Shown here: in pieces, positions 11,792-53,760 of the stretch
Position numbering within the stretch: the first letter of the stretch is position 1
Layout: the number at the start of each line of letters is the position of its first letter
Assembly: GCF_002242685.1 (NCBI RefSeq)
Contig: NZ_NBIM01000001.1
Location: 930,001-994,000 of the forward strand
Direction of reading: 5' to 3'
From: Oceanimonas doudoroffii
GTDB taxonomy: Bacteria > Pseudomonadota > Gammaproteobacteria > Enterobacterales > Aeromonadaceae
DNA: 64,000 nt
Translations under genes and position numbers: made by a program
The notes under the pieces: model-generated
What the model saw: only the letters and a program-made list of their open reading frames with translations
The model's database searches: none
What the model was told of the DNA's origin: nothing

Positions 11792-12208
11792 TTGGTCCAG
11801 AAACCGCTCGCTAACATCCTCCGCCGGCACCCAGCAGTGCTCGGTGCGGCCAAACCAGCGGTAACGGCGGGCGCCAATCATGTCATAGACCCGGTCGCGC
11901 AGCGGCCGCGGCACCAGCAACAGCACCTTCAGCAGCGGCCAGGGGGCGGAAAGCCGGCCGGCAGTGCGCAACGCGGCGGTGGATCTGAGCCAGACGCCCT
12001 GCTCATCAATCAACACCACCGAGCTCAGATTCGCCGCCGCCTTGATGCCGTAACGGGCCAGCAGTTGCTGCGCCACCGGCGATTGCAGCGAGGCAAAGCG
12101 AAACTGCTTGCCGGGATCGTGCTCAATGACGAAACGCACCGAGCCGGTACACAGGTTGCACACGCCGTCAAACAGCAGAATGGGGCCCTGTTCAGCAGCT
12201 GAGATCAT
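11789..12208 (-). CDS. DCC-family thiol-disulfide oxidoreductase-like protein
   Basis: A 139-residue DUF393/DCC-family protein. The defining motif FDGVCNLC places Asp14, Cys17 and Cys20 at the N-terminus, a thioredoxin-like CxxC. The ATG at 12208 has GGAG about 11 bases upstream; an upstream TTG is less likely. Its 5' end overlaps the 3' end of the HTTM gene by 17 bases, indicating coupled expression. DCC and HTTM proteins are often neighbours or fused in bacteria, but their joint substrate is unknown. Confidence 0.82.
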   Translation of the reverse strand: MISAAEQGPILLFDGVCNLCTGSVRFVIEHDPGKQFRFASLQSPVAQQLLARYGIKAAANLSSVVLIDEQGVWLRSTAALRTAGRLSAPWPLLKVLLLVPRPLRDRVYDMIGARRYRWFGRTEHCWVPAEDVSERFLDQ

Positions 12209-13613
12209 AACGGCGGCTCCGTTGTGGCGGGCGTTCAAAGGGCACCCGCAGGGGCAATATCCAGTCGGCCTGACGCAGACTGCGCTTCACCTGGGTGAGA
12301 TCCCGCTGTGGATCTATCAGCAGCGCCGCCGGGCGGCCGTTCAGCGACACACAGCTGCGAACCCGCACCTCTACATCACTGACTCCCAGCTCCCGCTCCC
12401 AGACCCGCTCAATATGATGGGCCAGCTGCACGATCAGATCCGGGCGAGTGCCCACCTTGCGGGCCTGGTGCGGAAACAAAAAGTCATTCGGCTCCACCCG
12501 CCATTCCCGACGGGTGGGCGGGTCGAACACACGAAACTCAATATCGGCCTTCTTGTCGCGCAGCTTCATCATCCAGGCAAAGGTGTGACCTTCCTCGGTC
12601 CAGCTGGGATTGCCCTCATAGAGCAGGTGGCGCAGCGGCAACAGCACCTGCACCGCAAACCATACCACCATGCCTCCCAGCACCACCCGGCGCAGCGCCA
12701 GGCCGGGTGTTGGTCCCGGTAATGAAGGCCGATACGGTGCCGGCGTGAGCCCCATCCGCCGCCGCAGGCCATGCAGCACCTGTCTTGGCCAGTCGGGATC
12801 CAGGAACAGCAGCGTGGCCGCCATGGTCAGCCACGGGAAAATGCCGATGGTGAACATGAAGTGATTCGACAGGTGAAAGCCGCAGTAGGCCAGAATGATT
12901 GGCAGCCGAGTGCGCCGCCACAGCAGCAGCGGCGCCCCCACCAGGTGTACGGCAATGGCGCCGTAGGCGGCCACCGCCACCATCCAGTCCTGTTCCAGCC
13001 AGGGGCCGATGAGCGGGGCCTCGGCGCGGCGCGCCAGCCACATGCCCAGGGGCTCCAGCCTGAGCCAGTCGGGGTTGAGCTTGACCAGGCCGGCAAAGAT
13101 CAGCATGACCTCCATCTGGCCCCGCAACAGCCATACCGACCACAACCCCACCGTGGTGCCATCCCGGCCGCCCTTGCGCCAGGCATCCACCGACCAGATG
13201 CGATGGGCCGGCACCCATGACAGCAAAAACAGCATCAGGCTGACCAGGTAGAAGTGGTTGAGGTAGCGCGCCTGATCCAGCAGGAATACATAGGTAAAGC
13301 CCAGCCACAACAGCACGATGGCCAGCCGGTAAAACAGGCCGATGGTCACGCACAAGGACAACAGCGCCAGCGCGCCGAACAGCCAGTACATGCCATTGCC
13401 CGGCAGCGGCGTGATCCATTCAAAGCCGTAATAGCTGAACAGAAAATCGGGGCTAATGTAGTAGCGCTCAATCCAGTCATGGCGGTAGAAGCGACCGCAC
13501 TCGACCAGCATGATCACGCCAAAACAGATGCGAAAAAACGCCAGCGACGCGGCATCCACCTGCTCAAACAGGCGGCCGGTCACGAAAGAGGAACAGGGTC
13601 GACTATGCATCAT
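12192..13613 (-). CDS. HTTM-domain membrane protein (vitamin K-dependent carboxylase-like)
   Basis: A 473-residue polytopic protein. Residues from about 20 to 300 form the HTTM (horizontally transferred transmembrane) domain related to gamma-glutamyl carboxylase, with motifs such as FFRICFGVIMLVECGRF and LNHFYLVSLMLFLLSW. A soluble C-terminal part of about 150 residues follows. The frame runs 345 bases further upstream, but the MM at 13613/13610 is where family similarity begins; no strong ribosome-binding site is visible. It overlaps the DCC gene. The reaction catalysed by bacterial HTTM proteins is mostly unknown. Confidence 0.82.
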   Translation of the reverse strand: MMHSRPCSSFVTGRLFEQVDAASLAFFRICFGVIMLVECGRFYRHDWIERYYISPDFLFSYYGFEWITPLPGNGMYWLFGALALLSLCVTIGLFYRLAIVLLWLGFTYVFLLDQARYLNHFYLVSLMLFLLSWVPAHRIWSVDAWRKGGRDGTTVGLWSVWLLRGQMEVMLIFAGLVKLNPDWLRLEPLGMWLARRAEAPLIGPWLEQDWMVAVAAYGAIAVHLVGAPLLLWRRTRLPIILAYCGFHLSNHFMFTIGIFPWLTMAATLLFLDPDWPRQVLHGLRRRMGLTPAPYRPSLPGPTPGLALRRVVLGGMVVWFAVQVLLPLRHLLYEGNPSWTEEGHTFAWMMKLRDKKADIEFRVFDPPTRREWRVEPNDFLFPHQARKVGTRPDLIVQLAHHIERVWERELGVSDVEVRVRSCVSLNGRPAALLIDPQRDLTQVKRSLRQADWILPLRVPFERPPQRSRRYDLSC

Positions 13614-43437: not shown

Positions 43438-46400
43438 CTATGTGTGTGCCCTGACAAAGGCGGAAAAATCCTCGCCCAGCAACGGCCGGCTGTACCAGTA
43501 GCCCTGAATGGCGTCACAGCCCTTGCGCCGCAAGGTTTCAAACTGCTCCTCTGTCTCCACGCCCTCGGCAATGGTGCGCATCCCCAGGCTGCGTGCCATG
43601 TGAATGATGGCGTTGACGATGGTTTTGTCTTCGTGCTTGTGGGTGACCTCGTCCACAAACGACTTGTCGATCTTGATCTTGTCGATGGCAAAGCGTTTCA
43701 GGTAACTCATGGAGGAATAGCCGGTGCCAAAGTCGTCAATGGAAATTCGAAAACCGGCGGCACTCAGGGCGGCCATCTTTTCACCGGTGTCTTCCGGGTT
43801 CACCATGGCCACCGATTCCGTCAGCTCGATGTCAATGGCCTGCGCAGGCACGCCGCTGGCGTGCACCCTGGCCTGCAGCTCGGTCACAAAGTCGGGCTGC
43901 ACCAGTTGGGCGGCAGACACATTCACGGCAATGGAAATATTATCCCGGCCGGCGGCGCGCAGGGCCACCAGCTGTTCCAGTACCCGATCAATGACCCACC
44001 AGCCAATGCTGACGATAAGGCCGTTCTGCTCGGCCAGGGGAATGAACTCGGCGGGCGAAACAAAGCCCCGTTCAGGGTGGCGCCAACGCAACAGGGCTTC
44101 GGCACCGATCATGCGCCGGTGAGAAATATCCATCTGGGGCTGGAATGCCAATGCCAGCTCCTGGCTGGCAATGGCATTTTTCAGCGCCGTGGCCAGGGAC
44201 AGCGCCCGTTCACTGTGCTTTTGCATCTCGGGAGCATAAAAGCGCAGGCCATTGCGCCCATCCCGCTTGGCTCGGTACATGGCCAGCTCCGCCGCCTTGA
44301 ACAGGGCCACGGCGTTATCGCCATCATGGGGACAGGTGGCAATGCCAAGGGACGCGCTCACCGACAGAAGCTGATGGTTGAGGGTGACCGGTGCCTGAAT
44401 GCCCTGCAGCAACTGCTCGGCCAGCAGGGCGATCGTTTCCTGTTCGTTGCCTTCCACCGCCATTACAAAGCCATCCCCCAGCGGCCTGCCTATCAGGCTA
44501 CCCGGAGCCAGCTGAGCACGGAGCCGATTGGAGATCTCCACCAGCAACTCGTCGCCGGCAACATAACCCAGGCTGTCGTTGACCGACTTGAAGTTGTCCA
44601 TGTCCAGCCACAGTAACGATAGGCCACCACCACGCATGCGGCTACGGCGCAGCTGCTGGATAAGTTGTTGTTCAAAGGCCCGCTTGTTGAGCACGCCGGT
44701 AAGTTGATCACACTGGGACAGCTGACGCAGGCGCTCCTCGTTGTTACGGTGCTGAGTGATGTCCTCCTTGTGGGCCACATAGTTGATCACCCGACCGGCG
44801 TCATCGGTGATGGGGTAGATGGACGCGCTCTCGATATAGCAGCTGCCGTCGCGTCGGCGGTTGATCAGTTCGCCTTTCCAGGGCTGGCCCCGGTGAAGGT
44901 GTGCCCACATGTCGACATAGGTTTTGTTGTCGGTCTTGCCCGACTGAAGCATGCTCGGATTACGCCCTTCTACCTCATCAACGGCATAGCCGCTGACCCG
45001 GGTAAAAGCACGGTTAACATACTGAATACGCACCTGCGCGTCGGTAATGATGACCGGATAGGGATTTTGCTCCAGGGCCTTGGAAAGCCGGTGGATCGCC
45101 CTGTCCTGACGGCGCTGCCGAATACGGCTCCACAGCGCCGAAGCCACCATGCCGAGGGTAGTTCGCTCCTGCTCGCCGTAGCCTTCTTTCCTGCCGAACA
45201 CACTGACAACCAGTGCCACCCCCTGATGATCGCGCACGGGCAGGCTGATGCCCTCGCCGGCGGAGACTCCCTCCCAGGCAACCACCTGGTCACTGCGGGC
45301 GGCCTGCTGCCAGGGAGAAGCCGATTGCCCGTCAGTCAGCCAGGGCGCCGGGCTAGCGCCAAAGGTGCGAGGCTGTTCGGGCAGTTGGTCGGGGGTATTT
45401 TCCGGACACAGGTGGATCAGGCTGCCGGCACTGGCGGTCAGACCAGCCAGCTGCTCGGCACAACAGTCCAGCAAGGCGTTTTCGTTATCGTCCCGAGCAA
45501 GGCGCTTTATCTGCAGCAACAGGTTGTTGAGCCGGGTTTCATGCAGAATACGATGCTCATTTTCCACCTGGGCGCTGATATCCCGGCATAGCACCAGATA
45601 GCACCATCCCTCATGGCGGGATACCGACAGACCAAGGTGGCAGCCCCGCTCAGACACAATGCGCAGATCGTGCACCACCCCATCACGCTCGGCGCGACTG
45701 AGGGCATCCAAAAACACCTTCGTGGCCGGCGCCGGCAGCCAGTCACGCACATACGTGCCCGGTTGCCAATGCGCAAACTCACCGTTCTCTTTTCGGGCAT
45801 TCACCGACAGCACCCGCCCTGCCCCACTCACCTCCAGCAGGGTATCGGGAAGGGCCTTGAGGGTGGCCTGCAGCCGATTACGGGCATCATCCAGCTCCTG
45901 ATAGGGCTCGTATACCATTTCCCGAAACAGTGCTCGGTACAGAAAGCAATAAGTAATTATTTTGTAGAGATGCCCGAAAATATTGTAGGCGTCGGTAAAG
46001 TCCACATTAATGCTGAAGAAATACTCGCCCATGGCCATGATGACGGCCGAGGCCGCCAGATAGAGGTAGCCGAGGTAGCCTTCCTGCAGGTAGCGCCTGG
46101 CCAGGCCAAGGCCCGCCAGCAGATGCGCCATGATAATGACGTATTCACTGTGGATCTTGAAGTCGGTCAGTCCCTGCCCGACGATAAAGGTATCCGGCAC
46201 CAGCTCGGGCCAGTAGAAAAACCAGAGGTGGGCCACTGCCACCCCTGCCAGCATCAGCACCAATAGCCCCAGACGCAGCCCTTGGCCAGGCCTTTTGTTG
46301 ACCAGCGACGGCACAAAGGCCACATACAACAGCAGCACCGCGGTCAGACTGCGTGCAAGCAGCCAGAAATTGATGCTTTTTTCCGGCGTGTTGGCGGTCA

Positions 46401-46731
46401 CAAAGTCGGGCAGGACTCGATAAGACAGCACATGGGAGAGATCGAGCAGGCCGATGCCCAGAAAACCGACGCCGATCACCAGGGTCTGCAAGGATGGCCG
46501 GTAACGCTGGGTCACCCAGGCCATGCCAAAGATCATCATGGCAATGGCAAAGGCCGCTACCTCAAAAATAATGTTCAGCGGTACATAGTTGATCAGAAAC
46601 TCCACGCTTCTGAAAATGGAGAACCACTGTGACAGCCCCAAGATCAGCAACAGCGTAATAATACAGCAACAGGCCTTTTGTACCTGTGGAACATGCCATG
46701 ACGACTGCCGACTTGTGGTAACTTCACTCAT
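43438..46731 (-). CDS. MASE3-PAS-GGDEF-EAL cyclic-di-GMP protein with degenerate GGDEF
   Basis: A 1097-residue membrane signalling protein. Residues 25-270 form a MASE3-type membrane sensor. An N-terminal PAS-like region (about 280-400), a GAF-like region (about 405-560) and a clear PAS (about 570-690, NPYPVIITDAQVRIQYVNRAF) follow. The GGDEF domain has LGDGF at 751-755 where GGDEF should be, so it probably cannot make c-di-GMP. The EAL domain (about 865-1095) keeps E878-A-L-L-R and DDFGTGYSS, so phosphodiesterase activity is likely. It is a single-gene unit. Confidence 0.9.
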   Translation of the reverse strand: MSEVTTSRQSSWHVPQVQKACCCIITLLLILGLSQWFSIFRSVEFLINYVPLNIIFEVAAFAIAMMIFGMAWVTQRYRPSLQTLVIGVGFLGIGLLDLSHVLSYRVLPDFVTANTPEKSINFWLLARSLTAVLLLYVAFVPSLVNKRPGQGLRLGLLVLMLAGVAVAHLWFFYWPELVPDTFIVGQGLTDFKIHSEYVIIMAHLLAGLGLARRYLQEGYLGYLYLAASAVIMAMGEYFFSINVDFTDAYNIFGHLYKIITYCFLYRALFREMVYEPYQELDDARNRLQATLKALPDTLLEVSGAGRVLSVNARKENGEFAHWQPGTYVRDWLPAPATKVFLDALSRAERDGVVHDLRIVSERGCHLGLSVSRHEGWCYLVLCRDISAQVENEHRILHETRLNNLLLQIKRLARDDNENALLDCCAEQLAGLTASAGSLIHLCPENTPDQLPEQPRTFGASPAPWLTDGQSASPWQQAARSDQVVAWEGVSAGEGISLPVRDHQGVALVVSVFGRKEGYGEQERTTLGMVASALWSRIRQRRQDRAIHRLSKALEQNPYPVIITDAQVRIQYVNRAFTRVSGYAVDEVEGRNPSMLQSGKTDNKTYVDMWAHLHRGQPWKGELINRRRDGSCYIESASIYPITDDAGRVINYVAHKEDITQHRNNEERLRQLSQCDQLTGVLNKRAFEQQLIQQLRRSRMRGGGLSLLWLDMDNFKSVNDSLGYVAGDELLVEISNRLRAQLAPGSLIGRPLGDGFVMAVEGNEQETIALLAEQLLQGIQAPVTLNHQLLSVSASLGIATCPHDGDNAVALFKAAELAMYRAKRDGRNGLRFYAPEMQKHSERALSLATALKNAIASQELALAFQPQMDISHRRMIGAEALLRWRHPERGFVSPAEFIPLAEQNGLIVSIGWWVIDRVLEQLVALRAAGRDNISIAVNVSAAQLVQPDFVTELQARVHASGVPAQAIDIELTESVAMVNPEDTGEKMAALSAAGFRISIDDFGTGYSSMSYLKRFAIDKIKIDKSFVDEVTHKHEDKTIVNAIIHMARSLGMRTIAEGVETEEQFETLRRKGCDAIQGYWYSRPLLGEDFSAFVRAHT

Positions 46732-47246
46732 AATTTACACCCATGGTGACAGGCAAAAACCCGAGGAAGCTAACGGAATTACCCACGCTATTCCAGGCTT
46801 AACATTGGATTTAATTGAGTCGCCCACGCGTCAGATCAAACAATGACCTTTTTTCCACCAACGCAGGCGAGTTATTGTTCAAATAACTCTCTGCCACAGG
46901 AGGGCCGGCCATAACGTCACCAAACCGACCGATGTCGTTAATCAGGCCGCATCTATAGCCCTAATTTTTTACGAGGTGGGGTGGTCATATTGCTCAATCT
47001 GCCGGACAAGGGCTGACGGCACTCTCTGGTGTCGTCAGTCCCCTCATCCGAGCCCTGATATAACCGGCGTCGAAGCGACACATTCATCAACTGAAGGTGA
47101 AGTTAATAACCCTTTCACCAGCGAAAGGCCGCAGAAAGCCTTTGGCATGAGGGCGGTTACTTATGTTTTGCCGCGCTTTGCACGCCCGCTGTCACCTGAG
47201 CCCGTTCGTCAGAAAAGCAGTCGTGGCTGAAAAATGTTTCTCTGCT
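46732..47246. other. Gene-poor 515 bases at the left edge of the AT-rich island
   Basis: No supported gene. Short frames here lack ribosome-binding sites or family signals. An imperfect hairpin, CTGACGGCA...TGTCGTCAG, lies near 47011-47037, and the left copy of a 16-base direct repeat is at 47197-47212. It may be decayed mobile DNA but no family could be recognised. Confidence 0.5.
47197..47212 (+). repeat. Left copy of 16-bp direct repeat
   Basis: TGAGCCCGTTCGTCAG, identical to 49718-49733. The pair brackets mesD, mesX and the mesX promoter (2.5 kb). Confidence 0.6.
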
Positions 47247-48290
47247 TTAGGCAGCAACGCCCTTCGCCAGGAGTTCTCTGCGAAGGATTTCTGCGCCCGC
47301 ACTCAAGGCCTCCAGCTTGCCTCTTGCTACCCGGCGAGACAAGGGAGCCATGCCACAGTTGGTGCTGGGATAGAGCTTGTCGGCATCCACAAATTCAAGT
47401 GCTTTTCGCAACGTATTGGCGACTTCTTCCGGCGTTTCAATGCTGTTGGTTGCCACATCAATGGCCCCTACCATTACTTTTTTACCTCGAATGAGCTCAA
47501 TCAGCTCCATCGGAACACGAGAGTTTTGACATTCCAGCGAAATGATATCGATATTAGACTGTTGCAGTTTGGGAAAGACCTCTTCATATTGTCTCCACTC
47601 GGAGCCCAAGGTTTTCTTCCAGTCCGTGTTGGCCTTGATACCATAGCCATAACAAATGTGTACGGCAGTTTCACATTTCAGGCCTTCAATGGCTCTTTCC
47701 AGGGCGGCAATCCCCCAGTCATTGACCTCATCAAAGAACACATTAAATGCCGGCTCATCAAACTGGATAATATCAACACCCGCCGCTTCCAGTTCCCTGG
47801 CCTCTTGATTGAGTATTTTGGCGAATTCCCAGGCCAGTTTTTCACGACTTTTATAATGATCATCATAGAGCGTATCTATCATGGTCATGGGGCCAGGCAG
47901 TGCCCATTTAATGGGCTGTTTGGTCTGCTGTCGTAAAAATTTTGCATCTTCAACAAACACCGGCTTTTGGCGACTGACGGCACCCACAACCGACGGCACA
48001 CTCGCATCATAGCGGTCACGAATTTTAACGGTCTTGCGCTTTTCAAAATCGACACCGTCGAGGTGTTCAATAAAGGTAGTGACAAAATGCTGACGCGTTT
48101 GCTCGCCATCACTGACAATATCAATACCTGCTTGTAGCTGCTCATGCAGCGACACACGCAGCGCATCCTGTTTGCCTTCGATAAGTTCCTCTTCTTGCAA
48201 TTTCCAGGGTGACCACAGTGTCTCGGGTTGTGCGAGCCAGGATGGTTTGGGTAAGCTTCCGGCAGTGGAAGTAGGTAATAATTTTTTCAT
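47247..48290 (-). CDS. mesD: Core MetE-like methionine synthase (MesD type)
   Basis: A 347-residue protein equivalent only to the C-terminal catalytic barrel of MetE; the N-terminal half is absent. Zinc ligands are all present: His211 and Cys213 (HICYGYG), Glu253 (SLEC) and Cys312 (NCGMAPLSRR). Substrate-side DEP is at 178-180. Such short MetE proteins paired with DUF1852 are the MesD class of folate-independent methionine synthases, which methylate homocysteine with an unknown donor and need oxygen and the partner. It lies 27 bases after the DUF1852 gene. Codon use is more AT-rich than in genes outside the island. Confidence 0.86.
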   Translation of the reverse strand: MKKLLPTSTAGSLPKPSWLAQPETLWSPWKLQEEELIEGKQDALRVSLHEQLQAGIDIVSDGEQTRQHFVTTFIEHLDGVDFEKRKTVKIRDRYDASVPSVVGAVSRQKPVFVEDAKFLRQQTKQPIKWALPGPMTMIDTLYDDHYKSREKLAWEFAKILNQEARELEAAGVDIIQFDEPAFNVFFDEVNDWGIAALERAIEGLKCETAVHICYGYGIKANTDWKKTLGSEWRQYEEVFPKLQQSNIDIISLECQNSRVPMELIELIRGKKVMVGAIDVATNSIETPEEVANTLRKALEFVDADKLYPSTNCGMAPLSRRVARGKLEALSAGAEILRRELLAKGVAA

Positions 48291-48317
48291 GATAGGTACC
48301 GTTTAAGTTATCGTTAA

Positions 48318-49301
48318 TTACAATGCGTAACTGGCAGACCATTGTTCCAGAACAGACTGGTATGGTTTAATGAAATTTTCCTCAGCAAGCTTTCCCTGTT
48401 TGATCGCTAACTGGCTACGTTCTTCTCGATCATAAACAATTTGCGTCAACGAATGATCCGAGTTTTTCAGGTTAGGCTTGTAACATTTCCCTGCCACGGC
48501 ATTAGCATTATAAATCTCAGGCCGATAGATCTTCTGAAATGTCTCCATCGTACTGATGGTGCTGATGAGCTCGAGATTGCTGTAATCGTTCAGCAAATCG
48601 CCAAAGAAGAAGAAAGCCAGAGGCGCGACGCTATGTGGCGGCATAAAATAGCGCACCTTCAGCCCCATCTTCTTGAAATATTGCTCCGTCAGCGATGACT
48701 CATTGGGCAGGTATTCAACACCCAATACGGGATGCTGATTTTCGGTCTGATGATAGGTCTTGTTGTCTGAAACACTGAGGCATATCACAGGTAGCTTAGT
48801 AAAGTGTTGTTTGTAGGCAGGAGAATTCACAAAGCACTTAAAGAGCTTTCCATGCAGATCACCAAAACCATCTGGAATGCTAAAGCTGGCTTTACCCTTA
48901 TTATGATTCAACAGCAATACACTAAAGTCATAATCGCGAACATAAGAGGAGAAGTTATTACCTACAATACCTTCAATACGTTTCTTTGTTTTATTGTCAA
49001 CAATATTTGTTTTCAAAACTTCAATCGTGGGAAAACTTTGGCCGTTGCCTTCACTATCAACATCCATATCAACAGAAATAATTTCAAGCTCGACTGAATA
49101 ACGATCCCCTTTGGGGTTATCCCAATTCGCCAGGGCATTAAACCGATTATCAATCATCGTTAAGGCGTTGCGCAAGTTCTCCTGACGGCTCTCGCCTCTG
49201 GCAAGGTTAGCGAAGTTGGTAGTAATACGCGTACTGTCTGACGGCTGATAATGTTCGTCGAAGGCAATGCTGTTGATAGTAAATGTAAATTCGTTACTCA
49301 T
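48318..49301 (-). CDS. mesX: DUF1852 protein, MesX-type partner of MesD
   Basis: A 327-residue DUF1852 protein with no signal peptide or membrane helix. The ATG at 49301 (MSNEFTFTINSIAFDEHY) gives the family length; an upstream in-frame ATG is unsupported. DUF1852 proteins occur almost only next to core-MetE genes, and genetic work on the MesD family showed the partner (MesX) is required for methionine synthesis. Its reaction is unknown; it may supply or activate the methyl group in an oxygen-dependent step. A MetR box lies 161 bases upstream. Confidence 0.86.
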   Translation of the reverse strand: MSNEFTFTINSIAFDEHYQPSDSTRITTNFANLARGESRQENLRNALTMIDNRFNALANWDNPKGDRYSVELEIISVDMDVDSEGNGQSFPTIEVLKTNIVDNKTKKRIEGIVGNNFSSYVRDYDFSVLLLNHNKGKASFSIPDGFGDLHGKLFKCFVNSPAYKQHFTKLPVICLSVSDNKTYHQTENQHPVLGVEYLPNESSLTEQYFKKMGLKVRYFMPPHSVAPLAFFFFGDLLNDYSNLELISTISTMETFQKIYRPEIYNANAVAGKCYKPNLKNSDHSLTQIVYDREERSQLAIKQGKLAEENFIKPYQSVLEQWSASYAL

Positions 49302-49461
49302 AGTCTGGCATCCAATTTCCGAGATAAAACCTGAATTTGTTTCTTGCTCTTTCTGGGCCTGACGATTCTTTTCTATCCAGAAGTCCAGATGTCTAGAGCT
49401 AAGCATGAGTATGTTATACAGGGACGGTTACATGAAAAATAATGATTTGATTTCATAAATA

Positions 49462-49478
49462 CATGAACAAATTTCATG
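49462..49478. promoter_or_regulatory. MetR box upstream of mesX
   Basis: CATGAACAAATTTCATG has perfect 6-base arms and contains TGAA-N5-TTCA, the MetR consensus of E. coli and relatives. It lies upstream of a candidate mesX promoter, the position expected for activation. Confidence 0.78.
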
Positions 49479-49717
49479 ATTTGTGGTAAGCCAAGGCTCT
49501 CGGTCGAACGATGTGCCACGTTCTTGGTATGGGACGCTGACAGAGCAGGCTGCAGCCCGGCAGTACAGGCCGGTTCTGTCGGTTGAAAAGTGGCGGCACC
49601 ACTAGCGGGTAGCCTCTTCATCCATCTGGCAGGTCAGTAAACGTCGATGGACCAGGATTCGGTTGCACTGCCAGCAGTTGCTGAGGTAATGCCGTACTTT
49701 ATCATGGGCTCACTTCG

Positions 49718-49733
49718 TGAGCCCGTTCGTCAG
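49718..49733 (+). repeat. Right copy of 16-bp direct repeat
   Basis: TGAGCCCGTTCGTCAG, identical to 47197-47212. This copy begins inside the right arm of a perfect hairpin. Confidence 0.6.
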
Positions 49734-49848
49734 TGGGCCAGTTCAGGAGAAGGAGAGACAGGGTTACCTGTATAGAAGGCAGCGCCACCTTACAGTGCCC
49801 ACAGCAGTATCAGCTTGGAAATATGCGAGATCGAGCAAGGCTGAGTCA

Positions 49849-50733
49849 TTACCTGACATTCTGAGCCAGAGCAATGAAGTCACTCAGGTAGTGAATCTGT
49901 TCTTCGCCTTTTCGCACCCCCAAAAAGATTTGCTTTTTTATGCCATGCTTGCCGAATCGCAGGCTCTTAATGGCCATATGTTTGGCAAATTCATCCACTA
50001 GCCAACCAGGGAGAGCACATACGCCTCTGCCTGCCGCCACCATCTGCAACATGATTTCCGTCGTTTCGATGGTTTTGTGCTTTTTGACCGAACATTTGGC
50101 GGGGTTTAAGAACTGACTGTAAATATCCAGTCGCTCGGGCTCTACCGGATAGCTGAACAACACCTCTTCATTCAGCTCATCAGGCATAACCGAGTCTTGC
50201 GTCGCAAGGGAATGGGATGATGCAACGACGAGTCTGTGTTCATAATCAAATACCGGTATAAACGTCAGATTGGGTTTATATAAGGGATCGGGAGTAACAA
50301 GGATATCTATCTCGTAGCTATAGAGAGCACCCAGGCCACCGAACTGAAATTCCTGCTTTACGTCAATATCAACGTTTGGCCATTTTTCAAGATAAGGTTC
50401 AATGACCTTTAACAACCATTGATAGCAAGGATGACATTCCATGCCGATGCGCAGTGAACCCATTTCGCCTGTCGCTATCTGGCGCAATAAATGCTCAGTA
50501 TGTTTAAATTGTGGCAATACCCGGTTCGCAAGAGTCAATACTTGTTCACCCGCATTGGTAAGCCGCAAGTTTCTGCCTTCTTTTTGCCAAACAGGTGTTT
50601 TGAGCTGACCTTCCAGCTTTTTAATGCTGTGACTCAAGGCAGACTGAGATAAATTTAATGACTCAGCAGCCTGAGTTAACGTTCCTTGCTCTTTGATTGC
50701 TGCCAGTACTTCAAGATGAAACCTCTCCAACAT
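49849..50733 (-). CDS. metR: MetR-like LysR-family regulator
   Basis: A 294-residue LysR-type regulator. The helix-turn-helix region (1-62) reads GTLTQAAESLNLSQSALSHS, and the effector domain begins MGSLRIGMECHPCYQWL, matching the ECHxCxQWL segment of MetR; MFDYE-like and QMVAAGRGVCALP segments also correspond. MetR senses homocysteine and activates methionine genes. GGAGTTAAGGC precedes the ATG. MetR boxes upstream of both this gene and mesX support the assignment. It may be an island-specific paralogue of a chromosomal MetR elsewhere. Confidence 0.85.
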   Translation of the reverse strand: MLERFHLEVLAAIKEQGTLTQAAESLNLSQSALSHSIKKLEGQLKTPVWQKEGRNLRLTNAGEQVLTLANRVLPQFKHTEHLLRQIATGEMGSLRIGMECHPCYQWLLKVIEPYLEKWPNVDIDVKQEFQFGGLGALYSYEIDILVTPDPLYKPNLTFIPVFDYEHRLVVASSHSLATQDSVMPDELNEEVLFSYPVEPERLDIYSQFLNPAKCSVKKHKTIETTEIMLQMVAAGRGVCALPGWLVDEFAKHMAIKSLRFGKHGIKKQIFLGVRKGEEQIHYLSDFIALAQNVR

Positions 50734-50764
50734 GCCTTAACTCCGGTCTATAGCACCCAGATCA

Positions 50765-50779
50765 ATGAATATAATTCAT
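50765..50779. promoter_or_regulatory. MetR box upstream of metR
   Basis: ATGAATATAATTCAT is a perfect 5-base-arm palindrome with TGAA-N5-TTCA, centred 39 bases before the metR ATG. It overlaps a possible -10, the position expected for negative autoregulation. Confidence 0.75.
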
Positions 50780-50936
50780 GACTCAGTAAAAATACATCAT
50801 TATTTTCATCATTAATATTTCACTCATGCGCCCATGAATGTCCGGTCAATTCGAAACTCGATAATGCCCGCTGATTGATATTACTGCTCAAAAAAGAGCC
50901 GGAATGTTTACAGCCTCACTCGAGCAAGACAGCTCA

Positions 50937-51560
50937 TCACGACATGCCTTGAAACACTCCAAGTTGGGCGTTGACGATATTGCAGCCAACATAAACCAGC
51001 AGTAGCGCCATTAATGCATTAAGCATGCGAAAAAAAGCCGGTGTCCGAATGAGCTTGCCAAGTCGTGCGCCCAGCAGCAGGTAGCTACCCGGGGCTCCAA
51101 GCGCCATCCCCCCCAGCAGTACCGACCATAAGGCAATACCTGCTCCGCTGATACCGACAGCCGGAAACTGAACGGTGACAATCGGCAGGATTGCGACCGG
51201 CGCCTTGGGGTTACATAACTGCATCAGCAGGCCTGAACGGAACGACAGGGCGGCTTGCCCCACTTTGGCGTCGTCCGCCTTGGCCGGCGTAGTGGATTGA
51301 ATGGCCGTCTTCCCGATTTTAAGTGCCAGCCATAAGATATAGAGGCCGCCGAACAACCCAATGACGGCCTGAAACGCTACAGGCAGCAAGGCACCGCTGT
51401 AACCGAACACAAAAAACAGCAGAAACATGGCCACGCCCACACCAACACAAAAAGGAACCGTCCTCTTTCCCTGACCGTTCAGCCCGGCATTCAGGCTCAG
51501 CAGGTTTACCGGGCCTGGGGTATACATAATGCCAAACGCATACATGAGTATCTCGACCAT
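50937..51560 (-). CDS. LysE-family amino-acid exporter
   Basis: A 207-residue, six-helix LysE/RhtB-type translocator. The family start GIMYTPGPVNLLSLNAGLNG is present, then NPKAPVAILPIVTV in the middle. AGGAG precedes the ATG. It lies 43 bases after the AraC gene on the same strand and upstream of metR. Export of methionine, homocysteine or another amino acid would suit the neighbourhood, but the substrate is inferred only from context. Confidence 0.85.
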   Translation of the reverse strand: MVEILMYAFGIMYTPGPVNLLSLNAGLNGQGKRTVPFCVGVGVAMFLLFFVFGYSGALLPVAFQAVIGLFGGLYILWLALKIGKTAIQSTTPAKADDAKVGQAALSFRSGLLMQLCNPKAPVAILPIVTVQFPAVGISGAGIALWSVLLGGMALGAPGSYLLLGARLGKLIRTPAFFRMLNALMALLLVYVGCNIVNAQLGVFQGMS

Positions 51561-51603
51561 GGTCGAACTCCTAATGAATCAAGTTAGAGTGGATAAGTGG
51601 AAA

Positions 51604-52458
51604 TCAGTGATTCAAAACGATTTGCTGATATTGACGAGGGGTCATGCCAAAAACGGGTTTGAAGCGGCGGTTCAGATGACTCAGGTCGGCAAAACCAAAA
51701 GAGTGAACCACATCATCCAGCTGTACACCTGCGGCCAGGGCTTCACGGGCACGATTGAGGCGGCAGTTCAACACGTACTGATACGGTGTCATGCCAAACT
51801 GCCGCCGGAACAAGCGCAAAAAGTGATACTTTGATAACGCCGCCTGCTGGCTGATCTGCTCCAGTGAAAGAGCGTCAAACACATGGGCATGAATGTAATC
51901 GCGCGCCCTTAGCAACAGACTGTCAACCCTCTGCTGGGTCTGGTTCGGTGAGTAATCGCTGTGCAGTTGGGCAATACGCGCCGCTAACGAGTAAAGCAGG
52001 CTCTCCTGAACCAGTGGCTCGGCCTCATCGCATTCAATCAGGGTGCACAAACGCAGCAGTTCGGCGCGCAGCACACCATCTTTTAGCAGCGTGTCTTCGA
52101 TTCTGAAATCATGCGGTCGCCTTACCCCTGCCGCCGCCAGGGCCGGAGCCAACTGCTCGGGGTGAATGTAGAGCATTTTATATTGCAGCACATCATCGGT
52201 GCCGGAATGCCCATCGTGGGCCACGTCCGGGTTAAAAACGATGACGTTGCCGGGCGTGCTGTAATGAAACATGCCGTTGGAGAAAAAGTCCTGGCGACCG
52301 GCGAGCGTGATACCCAGCGAGTATTCTTCGTGCGCATGTTTGCCATAAGCGAAATCATGCATGAGCGCACTCAGGAGCATCACCTGGTCCAGATGCTTGC
52401 TTTTGCGGTATTGGAATTGGTTGTCCTGCTGCATAGCCTGTCGCCTTGCCGAGTTCAT
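51604..52458 (-). CDS. AraC-family regulator
   Basis: A regulator of about 284 residues. An AraC-type cupin (about 30-110, FAYGKHAHEEYSLGI) is followed by a double helix-turn-helix (about 180-280, SLEQISQQAALSKYHFLRLF and VVHSFGFADLSHLNRRFK). It belongs to the group often paired with LysE exporters and lies just upstream of one. The start is uncertain between 52458 and 52434; a TATAAT-like -10 at 52485-52490 (minus strand) lies just before either. Confidence 0.85.
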   Translation of the reverse strand: MNSARRQAMQQDNQFQYRKSKHLDQVMLLSALMHDFAYGKHAHEEYSLGITLAGRQDFFSNGMFHYSTPGNVIVFNPDVAHDGHSGTDDVLQYKMLYIHPEQLAPALAAAGVRRPHDFRIEDTLLKDGVLRAELLRLCTLIECDEAEPLVQESLLYSLAARIAQLHSDYSPNQTQQRVDSLLLRARDYIHAHVFDALSLEQISQQAALSKYHFLRLFRRQFGMTPYQYVLNCRLNRAREALAAGVQLDDVVHSFGFADLSHLNRRFKPVFGMTPRQYQQIVLNH

Positions 52459-52485
52459 TATTACGCTCAAGAGAAACAATAGAAA

Positions 52486-52692
52486 TTATAGGGAGGCGGT
52501 TGCATTGAGACTTGAACAAAATTGCTGATAATAAGGCGACCCAGCGGCAAGACGAAAGCCGGCAACAGACAGGTCTTTGGTCTTGAGTGATACCTTCCAC
52601 TCACAGCGACCAACGACGGTTAGAATATCGGCGGGCACTTGACGACGAAAGTAAAAGTACCCCGACTCAGAATGCTTCCACGGTGTAGCCAT
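52486..52692 (-). pseudogene. Truncated tyrosine integrase (N-terminal fragment)
   Basis: Starting about 105 bases from the tRNA-Ser 3' end and reading away from it, codons 1-57 resemble the N-terminal SAM-like/DUF6538 part of phage-type integrases: MATPWKHSESGYFYFRRQVP, then EWKVSLKTKDLS. After about 57 codons the similarity and then the frame end; the catalytic domain (R...HxxR...Y) is absent. This is the expected position and orientation of an integrase in a tRNA-associated island. Confidence 0.75.
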
Positions 52693-52754
52693 GACACGCA
52701 TTCTGTACCACCCTTCTGTACCAATCGGTGAAAGGCGGCTTGGGTTCTGAAACG

Positions 52755-52786
52755 AAAAAACCCTTGAATCCGTTAAGAATCAAGGG
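52755..52786 (-). terminator. Terminator of tRNA-Ser
   Basis: On the minus strand CCCTTGA-12-TCAAGGG followed by six T, starting 12 bases after the tRNA CCA end. Confidence 0.8.
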
Positions 52787-52797
52787 CTTATCTTGTT

Positions 52798-52885
52798 TGG
52801 CGGTGAGGGAGGGATTCGAACCCTCGATACGTTTCCGTATACACACTTTCCAGGCGTGCTCCTTCGGCCACTCGGACACCTCACC
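52798..52885 (-). tRNA. tRNA-Ser (anticodon GGA)
   Basis: An 88-base class II tRNA on the minus strand. The acceptor stem is GGTGAGG/CCTCACC, the anticodon arm is CACGC-CTGGAAA-GTGTG giving GGA, a long variable arm is present, the T arm contains GGTTCGAATCC and CCA is encoded. Its 3' end faces the AT-rich island and integrase fragment. Confidence 0.97.
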
Positions 52886-52927
52886 AAATTGTTGCTGGTC
52901 GGAAGCTCGTCCTCGTCAGCGGGGCGT

Positions 52928-52956
52928 ATAGTAGGCAAGGCCGGCGCCGGGTGCAA
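52928..52956 (-). promoter_or_regulatory. Candidate tRNA-Ser promoter
   Basis: On the minus strand TTGCAC (52956-52951), a 17-base spacer, TACTAT (52933-52928), then a GC-rich discriminator typical of stringently controlled stable RNA promoters. Confidence 0.55.
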
Positions 52957-53085
52957 CCCTTTTTCTGGCTTTGCGTTTCGTTTGCGCAGAATTGCGCCAC
53001 TCGCCCGTCTGGCTGCCGGGACGGGCGACGATAACCCCGGACTCTGGCATAATGGACGACCGTTTTTTGCAGCAACAGGACCATC

Positions 53086-53760
53086 ATGACGGCAACAACT
53101 TCAGCCAACCAGCTTCACGAGCGTTTTCGGGGTTACTACCCTGTGGTGATCGACGTGGAAACCGGCGGCTTTAACGCCCGTACCGACGCCCTGCTGGAAA
53201 TTGCCGCCATCACCCTGAAAATGGACAAAAATGGCTGGCTGAGCCCGGATCAGACCTTTCATTTTCATGTCACCCCCTTTGAAGGCGCCAACCTGGAGCC
53301 GGCGGCGCTGGAATTTACCGGCATTGATCCCTGGAGTGCCCTGCGCGGGGCCGTGACCGAGCGGGACGCCCTGGAGCAGATATTCAAGGGGGTGCGCAAG
53401 GGCATCAAGGCCAATCACTGCCAGCGCGCGGTGATCGTGGCCCACAACGCCTCCTTTGATCATGGCTTTGTCATGGCGGCGGCGGAACGTGCCGAGCTCA
53501 AGCGCAACCCCTTCCATCCTTTTGCCACCTTTGACACCGCCAGCCTCGCCGGCTTGGCCCTGGGCCAGACCGTGCTGGCCAAGGCCTGCCGCGCCGCCGG
53601 CATGAGCTTTGACAACAAGGAAGCCCACAGCGCCCTGTACGATACCCGCAAGACCGCCGAGCTGTTCTGCACCATCGTTAATCGCTGGAAGCTGCTGGGC
53701 GGCTGGCCCCCCGCCCCTGCCGACATGCCGGATTTCACCGACCCCGAGCAGCAGGCATAA
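53086..53760 (+). CDS. rnt: Ribonuclease T
   Basis: A 224-residue DEDDh 3'-5' exonuclease that trims tRNA and other stable RNA 3' ends. ExoI is [11 protein letters not shown] (Asp23, Glu25), Exo[12 protein letters not shown] and Exo[14 protein letters not shown]. Length matches the family. It lies beside a tRNA gene by chance. Ends in a strong hairpin. Confidence 0.96.

Follow-up and report, generated by a model that had tools for sequence, protein, structure and literature searches.

The metR-mesX-mesD cassette of Oceanimonas doudoroffii, a methionine-synthesis unit that probably replaced metE-metR in its genus and moved between chromosomal sites

MesD, a core methionine synthase, requires the partner protein MesX and oxygen and does not require 5-methyl-tetrahydrofolate or cobalamin; its methyl donor is described as unidentified in the part of Price et al. 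2021 (PMC7857596) that deals with the pair. The same part of that paper shows the oxygen need and the independence of folate and vitamin B12 with Sphingomonas koreensis genes in E. coli, and calls the solved structure 3rpd a MesD. A section of a 2026 study of Acinetobacter baumannii (PMC12892962) reports that the gene encoding DUF1852, the family of MesX, is down by ~8 log2 units with B12. As for regulation, the relevant portion of Leyn et al. 2014 (PMC4239095) gives ATGAA-N5-TTCAT as the MetR motif, lists PF08908-metE2 as a well-conserved target of the MetR regulon and describes activation of MetR by homocysteine. The MesD/MesX system and the control of that pair by MetR are already known. 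Here we analysed a window of 64,000 nucleotides from Oceanimonas doudoroffii (contig NZ_NBIM01000001.1, positions 930,001 to 994,000), the whole stretch being referred to as the window, in which a metR-like gene, mesX and mesD form a three-gene cassette. No prior report of MesD/MesX mobility or of replacement of metE-metR was found in the literature searched, subscription papers lying mostly outside its reach.

We propose that metR-mesX-mesD is a self-contained cassette which was probably acquired by the ancestor of the genus, replaced the metE-metR pair and moved repeatedly between sites and, in some lineages, between species. The window genome (G000) was compared with 22 relatives of the same genus (G001-G022; genus sample n=23), with 52 genomes from four other genera of the same family, and with 80 named loci, the best 80 of 589 relatives from one scan. 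The three genes of the cassette are located in the window as follows.

47247-48290, minus strand: mesD, core cobalamin-/folate-independent methionine synthase, 347 amino acids (PRK09121, 712 bits, cutoff 392)
48318-49301, minus strand: mesX (DUF1852, PF08908), partner of MesD, 327 amino acids, ATG at 49301 (PF08908, E 1.5e-187)
49849-50733, minus strand: metR-like gene for a LysR regulator (LysR domains)

The order metR-mesX-mesD on one strand was found in all 23 genomes of the genus, a contig end cutting metR in G018 and mesD in G010. MesX is encoded once per genome throughout the genus and was found in none of the 52 genomes of the other four genera. The three genes would form a self-contained methionine-synthesis cassette of ~3.5-3.8 kb that carries its own regulator. 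The MesX match of one relative (G022:C19:52669-53637) has one in-frame TAA.

To place the cassette among the methionine genes of the family, we compared the distribution of MetE, MetR and MetH. Outside the genus, the N-terminal domain of MetE scored over the cutoff in 47 of the 52 genomes (in pieces in G027 and G071), and a divergently oriented MetR homologue accompanies metE in 46 of the 47, 114-884 bp away and 34-57% identical to the cassette MetR (search at E<=1e-30, with up to 32 candidates scored per genome). Within the genus the same domain exceeded the cutoff in 3 genomes (in two pieces in G005) and was missing in 20, and one further genome of the genus gave a weak match of 41 residues under the cutoff. 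In the same search each of the 23 genomes gave one MetR homologue, the cassette's own. Since MetE is missing in 20 of the 23 and the sole MetR is that of the cassette, we conclude that the cassette stands in for the metE-metR pair. MetH is present in all 23 genomes, and CbiC, encoded by a corrin-ring gene, in none of them and in 5 of the 52 from other genera. MesXD would be the only B12-independent methionine synthase in 20 of the 23 species, with MetH relying on imported B12. In G021 (L201) the metH matches span several frames, which could leave MesXD as the sole methionine synthase or could be an assembly fault.

The two proteins of the pair carry the features expected of MesD and MesX. MesD aligned with the solved structure 3rpd_A at E 7e-205; PF01717 spans its residues 5-329, and PF08267, the N-terminal folate domain, stayed at 20.5 bits, below its cutoff of 27. 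The alignments with 3rpd and 1xpg demonstrated that the zinc ligands H211, C213, E253 and C312 and the homocysteine-binding residues S12, E63 and D178 are all present. MesX covers positions 1-323 of the 323 in the PF08908 profile; no solved relative was found by sequence, and its predicted model gave no fold match. With both models matched and all seven zinc and substrate residues kept, the identification of a core MetE plus DUF1852 as a MesD/MesX pair, made by the initial annotation, holds. By analogy with the published relatives we infer that the pair uses the same chemistry: MesX with oxygen would make or pass on a methyl group, and MesD would transfer it to homocysteine without folate or B12. 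A defence function for MesX or MetR was considered and set aside, PADLOC giving no match.

The regulator scored 205 bits against NF011950, the best among the 53 NCBIfam models matched; because this is under the cutoff of 382 we call the protein MetR-like. It should work like MetR. Boxes of the published type were predicted at both of its presumed target sites.

50765-50779, no strand assigned: 15-bp MetR box ATGAAN5TTCAT ahead of metR, predicted by motif
49463-49477, no strand assigned: 15-bp MetR box ATGAAN5TTCAT ahead of mesX, predicted by motif
49442-49456, no strand assigned: weaker second MetR-like box (relaxed ATGAN7TCAT), nearer the mesX promoter, conserved in the part of the alignment shown

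The motif ATGAAN5TTCAT has just two copies in the window, these at metR and mesX. Its core TGAAN5TTCA precedes metR in 17 of the 22 testable genomes (0.15 expected from single-base shuffles), lies between metR and mesX in 6 of 23 (0.17 expected) and precedes mesX in 22 of the 80 named loci (0.74 expected); inside the three cassette genes 2 copies were observed and 1.26 expected. The boxes agree with the MetR-type control of the methionine genes suggested at the outset, and, judging from published relatives, MetR with homocysteine would activate mesX and control its own gene. The mesX leader (window 49302-49440) is conserved in sequence in many gammaproteobacterial loci (L057, L062 and L042, for example), with in-frame stops in some loci and a common stretch right before the start codon. 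A structured RNA in this leader was also considered but is not supported and is at most a lead: RNAalifold gave none on 13 hand-picked leaders and Rfam held no fitting match. Helices drawn by hand had 81.8% paired cells, as high as in 29 of 500 shuffles, and slid versions reached at most 48.9%; the counts of pair changes were unremarkable, 131, 100, 133 and 70 of 500 shuffles reaching the observed values.

The chromosomal address of the cassette varies. Judged by neighbouring genes, the 23 cassettes occupy 12 settings within 3 kb and 10 within 8 kb. Six genomes have one 3-kb setting in common, four have a second one, and G000 is the sole member of its own. In G000 the neighbour gene of the largest site group is ~160 kb from the cassette, and the 57 kb beside that gene held no cassette remnants, weak LysR matches aside. 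Composition varies as well: in 10 of the 23 genomes all three genes have at most 49.5% GC (37-49.5%) beside a 5-kb flank of 58-68%, seven genomes are intermediate, and in six AT-rich hosts the GC of the cassette equals that of the flank or is slightly lower.

Two relatives have a gene for a 546-amino-acid protein around the cassette. In G022 the cassette separates the first 23 codons of this gene (L115:7526-7594) from its C-terminal part (L115:11460-11895), and in G004 the gene is whole on one side, with a diverged C-terminal piece on the other (L105:7662-7967, 11874-13514). The split gene looks as if the cassette had landed inside it.

In the window the cassette lies in a 6-kb AT-rich block between a GGDEF/EAL gene (43438-46731) and the gene for tRNA-Ser(GGA), together with the following features.

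50937-51560, minus strand: LysE-type exporter (PF01810), an island passenger
51604-52479, minus strand: AraC-type regulator (PF02311, PF12833), a passenger, start codon uncertain
52489-52692, minus strand: N-terminal remnant of a tyrosine integrase, 68 amino acids (DUF6538, E 2.8e-12), starting at the right edge of the island
52798-52885, minus strand: tRNA-Ser(GGA), at the insertion site, adjoining rnt in 22 of 22 relatives

The integrase of G000 is not intact and is cut to its first ~55-68 residues. The remnant is 75% identical over 52 amino acids to the start of a 583-amino-acid integrase beside the same tRNA in G014, a protein (L167:5146-6894) with DUF6538 and a weak Phage_integrase match. 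The GC content of each gene, the DUF6538 match and the alignment with G014 confirm the AT-rich block with an integrase remnant that the initial annotation described at this tRNA. The gap between the GGDEF gene and tRNA-Ser, 6067 bp in G000, is 280 bp in G017, 664 bp in G012 and 286 bp in G022, a short empty site, and no mes or metR genes were found at the tRNA-Ser(GGA) site in the stretch fetched from each of the 22 relatives (3.9 kb for G018, 10.6-14.7 kb for the other 21). The right edge of the island was placed at ~52693, because G012 is 97% identical to window 52693-52897; 105 bp separate it from the tRNA. The left edge falls somewhere within 46732-47085. A repeat of the tRNA 3' end at the far side of the island was not found in 46000-53500. 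An acquired block at tRNA-Ser, as proposed, is supported, the site being without methionine genes in every relative; the missing repeat and the distance of the edge from the tRNA correct the picture of a tRNA-anchored island. The cassette genes are present in all relatives at other sites, rather than as a block of normal composition at this one. In G020 and G016 other genes, ~6 kb of them, separate the GGDEF gene from tRNA-Ser(GGA) and, together with the integrase of G014 at the same tRNA, this makes the site look like an insertion hot spot.

The initial annotation had further proposed that synthesis, homocysteine control and possibly amino-acid export arrived together at tRNA-Ser as one package of five genes. 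The five (core MetE, DUF1852, MetR-like, LysE and AraC) do share one strand and fall within the borders of the empty site. However, just 1 of the 23 genus genomes has a LysE homologue (E<=1e-20), and the stretches of 9-19.5 kb around the other 22 cassettes contained neither LysE nor AraC nor the integrase piece, AraC elsewhere in those genomes not having been searched. The block is also two-toned, the methionine genes (43-49% GC) being more AT-rich than LysE and AraC (54-55%): GC and third-position GC are 42.5/47.6% for mesX, 45.4/48.1% for metR and 48.9/50% for mesD, compared with 55.4/63% for LysE, 53.8/64% for AraC and 59-62/69-78% for the genes flanking the block. The stable unit is metR-mesX-mesD, three genes and not five, and joint arrival of the five is very improbable. 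Low GC might alternatively reflect functional constraint on an old resident operon rather than acquisition, as the position of mesX as the most AT-rich of the three genes in all 23 genomes, AT-rich hosts included, would suggest. Yet metR and mesD reach 53-58% GC in G008, G012, G016 and G017, indicating that low GC is not required, and the window site is empty in sister genomes; we give constraint hardly any credence.

Another explanation has one gain in the genus ancestor followed by vertical inheritance and relocation inside each genome, with no transfer between species. Consistent with it, the MesX+MesD sequences of the genus come close to a single clade in a tree with the 80 named loci, and one origin is not rejected (approximately unbiased (AU) test, p 0.485, quick tree), and cassette and core identities are correlated (Spearman 0.62). 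The core tree, built on metH, rnt and modF, and the cassette tree nevertheless disagree, with several clades in conflict in both directions. Cassette data reject the core clades {G001,G007,G015,G019} (p 0.0018) and {G016,G017} (p 0.0053) and barely reject the eight-genome core clade holding G000 (p 0.048), and core data reject cassette clades in three of three tests (p 4.6e-4, 2.5e-6 and 6e-60). In addition, the cassettes of G015 and G020 are 93.6% identical as against 87.3% for their core proteins, and the ten genomes with GC-poor cassettes beside GC-rich flanks speak against purely vertical descent, which we consider unlikely. The conflicts between clades support transfer within the genus for some species. 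For G000 transfer is unproven; the cassettes most identical to its own are those of G004-G006.

Two loci from outside the genus, L094 and L102, which belong to Denitrificimonas caeni and another member of the Pseudomonadaceae, fall within the MesX+MesD clade of the genus in the quick tree (Shimodaira-Hasegawa-like approximate likelihood-ratio support of 96 and 99) and may reflect transfer between families. MesX was also found on 209 of 72,556 plasmid records, 34 of them typed conjugative and 40 mobilisable, some being megaplasmid or chromosome-sized. Acetobacter plasmids and Aliivibrio pRVS1-224 carry the mesX/mesD pair followed on the same strand by a LysR gene, which aligns with the metR part of the query, and insertion sequence (IS) or Tn3 genes are near; an exporter gene intervenes in pRVS1-224, and mesX is unannotated in one Acetobacter plasmid. 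The different gene order on plasmids indicates that the link to metR arose or was rearranged more than once. A MetR homologue (>100 bits) was present in the fetched flanks of 12 of the 80 named loci. MesX also occurs in two contigs (CAKLQH020000007.1 and CAKLQF020000011.1) that carry the label 'Acinetobacter phage'; host DNA is suspected.

The edges of the cassette carry remnants of mobile elements. In the window these are the following.

49591-49745, minus strand: IS5-family remnant R1, between metR and mesX (74% over 156 bp, E 1.3e-22, to the remnant behind G005 mesD)
47085-47230, minus strand: IS5-family remnant R2, behind mesD (71% over 159 bp, E 7e-16, to the remnant behind G009 mesD)
47197-47212, no strand assigned: 16-bp direct repeat, exact, copy inside R2 behind mesD
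49718-49733, no strand assigned: 16-bp direct repeat, exact, copy inside R1 between metR and mesX

The 16-bp direct repeat brackets mesXD and has two copies in the whole G000 genome. Longer decayed repeats around the 16-mer were best in G009 (92 bp, ~80%) and G001 (37 bp); bracketing repeats in the other 19 genomes tested were no better than in shuffles, and G010 was untestable. Transposase matches to PF13737 were detected behind mesD in G005 (4.9e-14) and G009 (1.8e-6) and upstream of metR in G006 (2.6e-7). R1 and R2 by themselves gave no Pfam transposase match and were recognised via DNA similarity only. IS5-family relatives on plasmids, ~49% identical, are annotated as ISEc35-type. Pieces of this family occur at cassette edges in 8 of the 23 genomes, with a transposase seen by Pfam in 3. 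G004 and G006 have them ahead of metR, four genomes (G000, G009, G013 and G021) between metR and mesX, and five (G000, G001, G005, G006 and G009) behind mesD. Other loci of the genus genomes (538 kb searched) and the 80 named loci (982 kb) contained no such pieces. The homology between the cassettes of G000 and G009 extends from ~-82 to +162, decayed pieces included, despite their different sites.

A second kind of repeat, 161-206 bp long with a strong hairpin and matching terminal repeats, resembles a miniature inverted-repeat transposable element (MITE). The cassettes of G004, G022 and G009 have it inside or close by, that of G005 has two copies around metR, and G015 and G014 have weaker pieces; it was not found in the 538 kb of other loci of the genus genomes. 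As a mover of the G000 cassette it was set aside, none being found in the window.

L107:7808-7968, L107:8969-9130, L105:10516-10677, L115:8681-8886 and L104:13000-13160: MITE-like repeat copies

Taken as a sequence of events, the history we favour would start with acquisition of the cassette by the genus ancestor and displacement of the metE-metR divergon that sister genera keep. Flanking IS5-family elements may have carried out the first mobilisation and, with these elements decayed, later moves may have used other vehicles such as plasmids or islands. The cassette would since have moved repeatedly between chromosomal sites, and between species in some lineages at least, the present copy of G000 sitting in an island with the unrelated passengers LysE, AraC and the integrase piece. 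A more specific version is held only tentatively, as possible rather than probable: that of a nomadic, IS5-born operon with its own boxes and regulator, which displaced metE-metR once, was always single-copy, was passed between species and sites, and makes B12-free methionine only in air.

Several observations weigh against this history. CbiC is missing across most of the family and not from the genus alone (5 of 75 genomes have it). The core tree consists of three genes only, two of the genomes lacking modF and five having only part of it; cassette data fail to reject the six-genome AT-rich core clade (p 0.079), and the cassette of G000 may group with its six nearest relatives (seven-genome core clade, AU p 0.306), as vertical descent would have it. 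The count of sites is approximate, because several cassettes are close to a contig end and because G020 has the neighbour gene of the largest group at a distance of ~18 kb, and the cassettes of G012 and G016 are close to their flanks in GC. As for the IS5-family pieces, in G001 and behind G006 mesD the match is 51-75 bp and covers the non-coding lead of the element only. The decayed pieces common to G000 and G009 at different sites indicate that the elements were dead before the latest move and did not drive it, and no intact transposase, target-site duplication or tRNA repeat was demonstrated at the G000 cassette. Among the matches listed, no integrase lies within 20 kb of a cassette, contigs being short, and integrase-borne movement in the relatives was set aside.

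Genes for amino-acid synthesis are normally fixed, and here a set of three with its own switch is present in every species of the genus examined, at addresses that vary. The cassette would be a clear case of an oxygen-dependent methionine pathway spreading and taking over, and it provides 23 natural versions for comparison. If the proposed history is true, the genus makes methionine without B12 only in air and needs methionine or B12 when oxygen is absent.

Compared with known systems, the locus may share with IS-flanked composite transposons (IS5, ISEc35-like) a flanking by IS copies, seen as remnants on both sides of mesXD (G000 and G009) or of the whole cassette (G006), and differs in that only decayed pieces are seen, complete ends and a target duplication not being demonstrated. 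Like tRNA genomic islands with a DUF6538-type tyrosine integrase, it has tRNA-Ser(GGA) as a neighbour, an integrase remnant and a site that is empty in sister genomes, whereas here the integrase is truncated, no tRNA-end repeat was found and the edge is 105 bp away. With the MetR regulon, as set out in the portion of Leyn et al. 2014 (PMC4239095) cited above, it has in common the 15-bp motif at metR and mesX; the core described there is metR with metE, often divergent, whereas here metR precedes mesX in the same orientation and most genomes lack metE. The MesD/MesX pair resembles that of Price et al. 2021 (PMC7857596) in the adjacency of both proteins, the conserved zinc and homocysteine residues and the co-occurrence of MetH. 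The part of that paper concerned with mesDX links these genes to a flavin reductase, does not name MetR and does not contain the words 'horizontal' or 'transferred'; in contrast, a MetR-like gene adjoins the pair here in all 23 genomes of a genus mostly without MetE.

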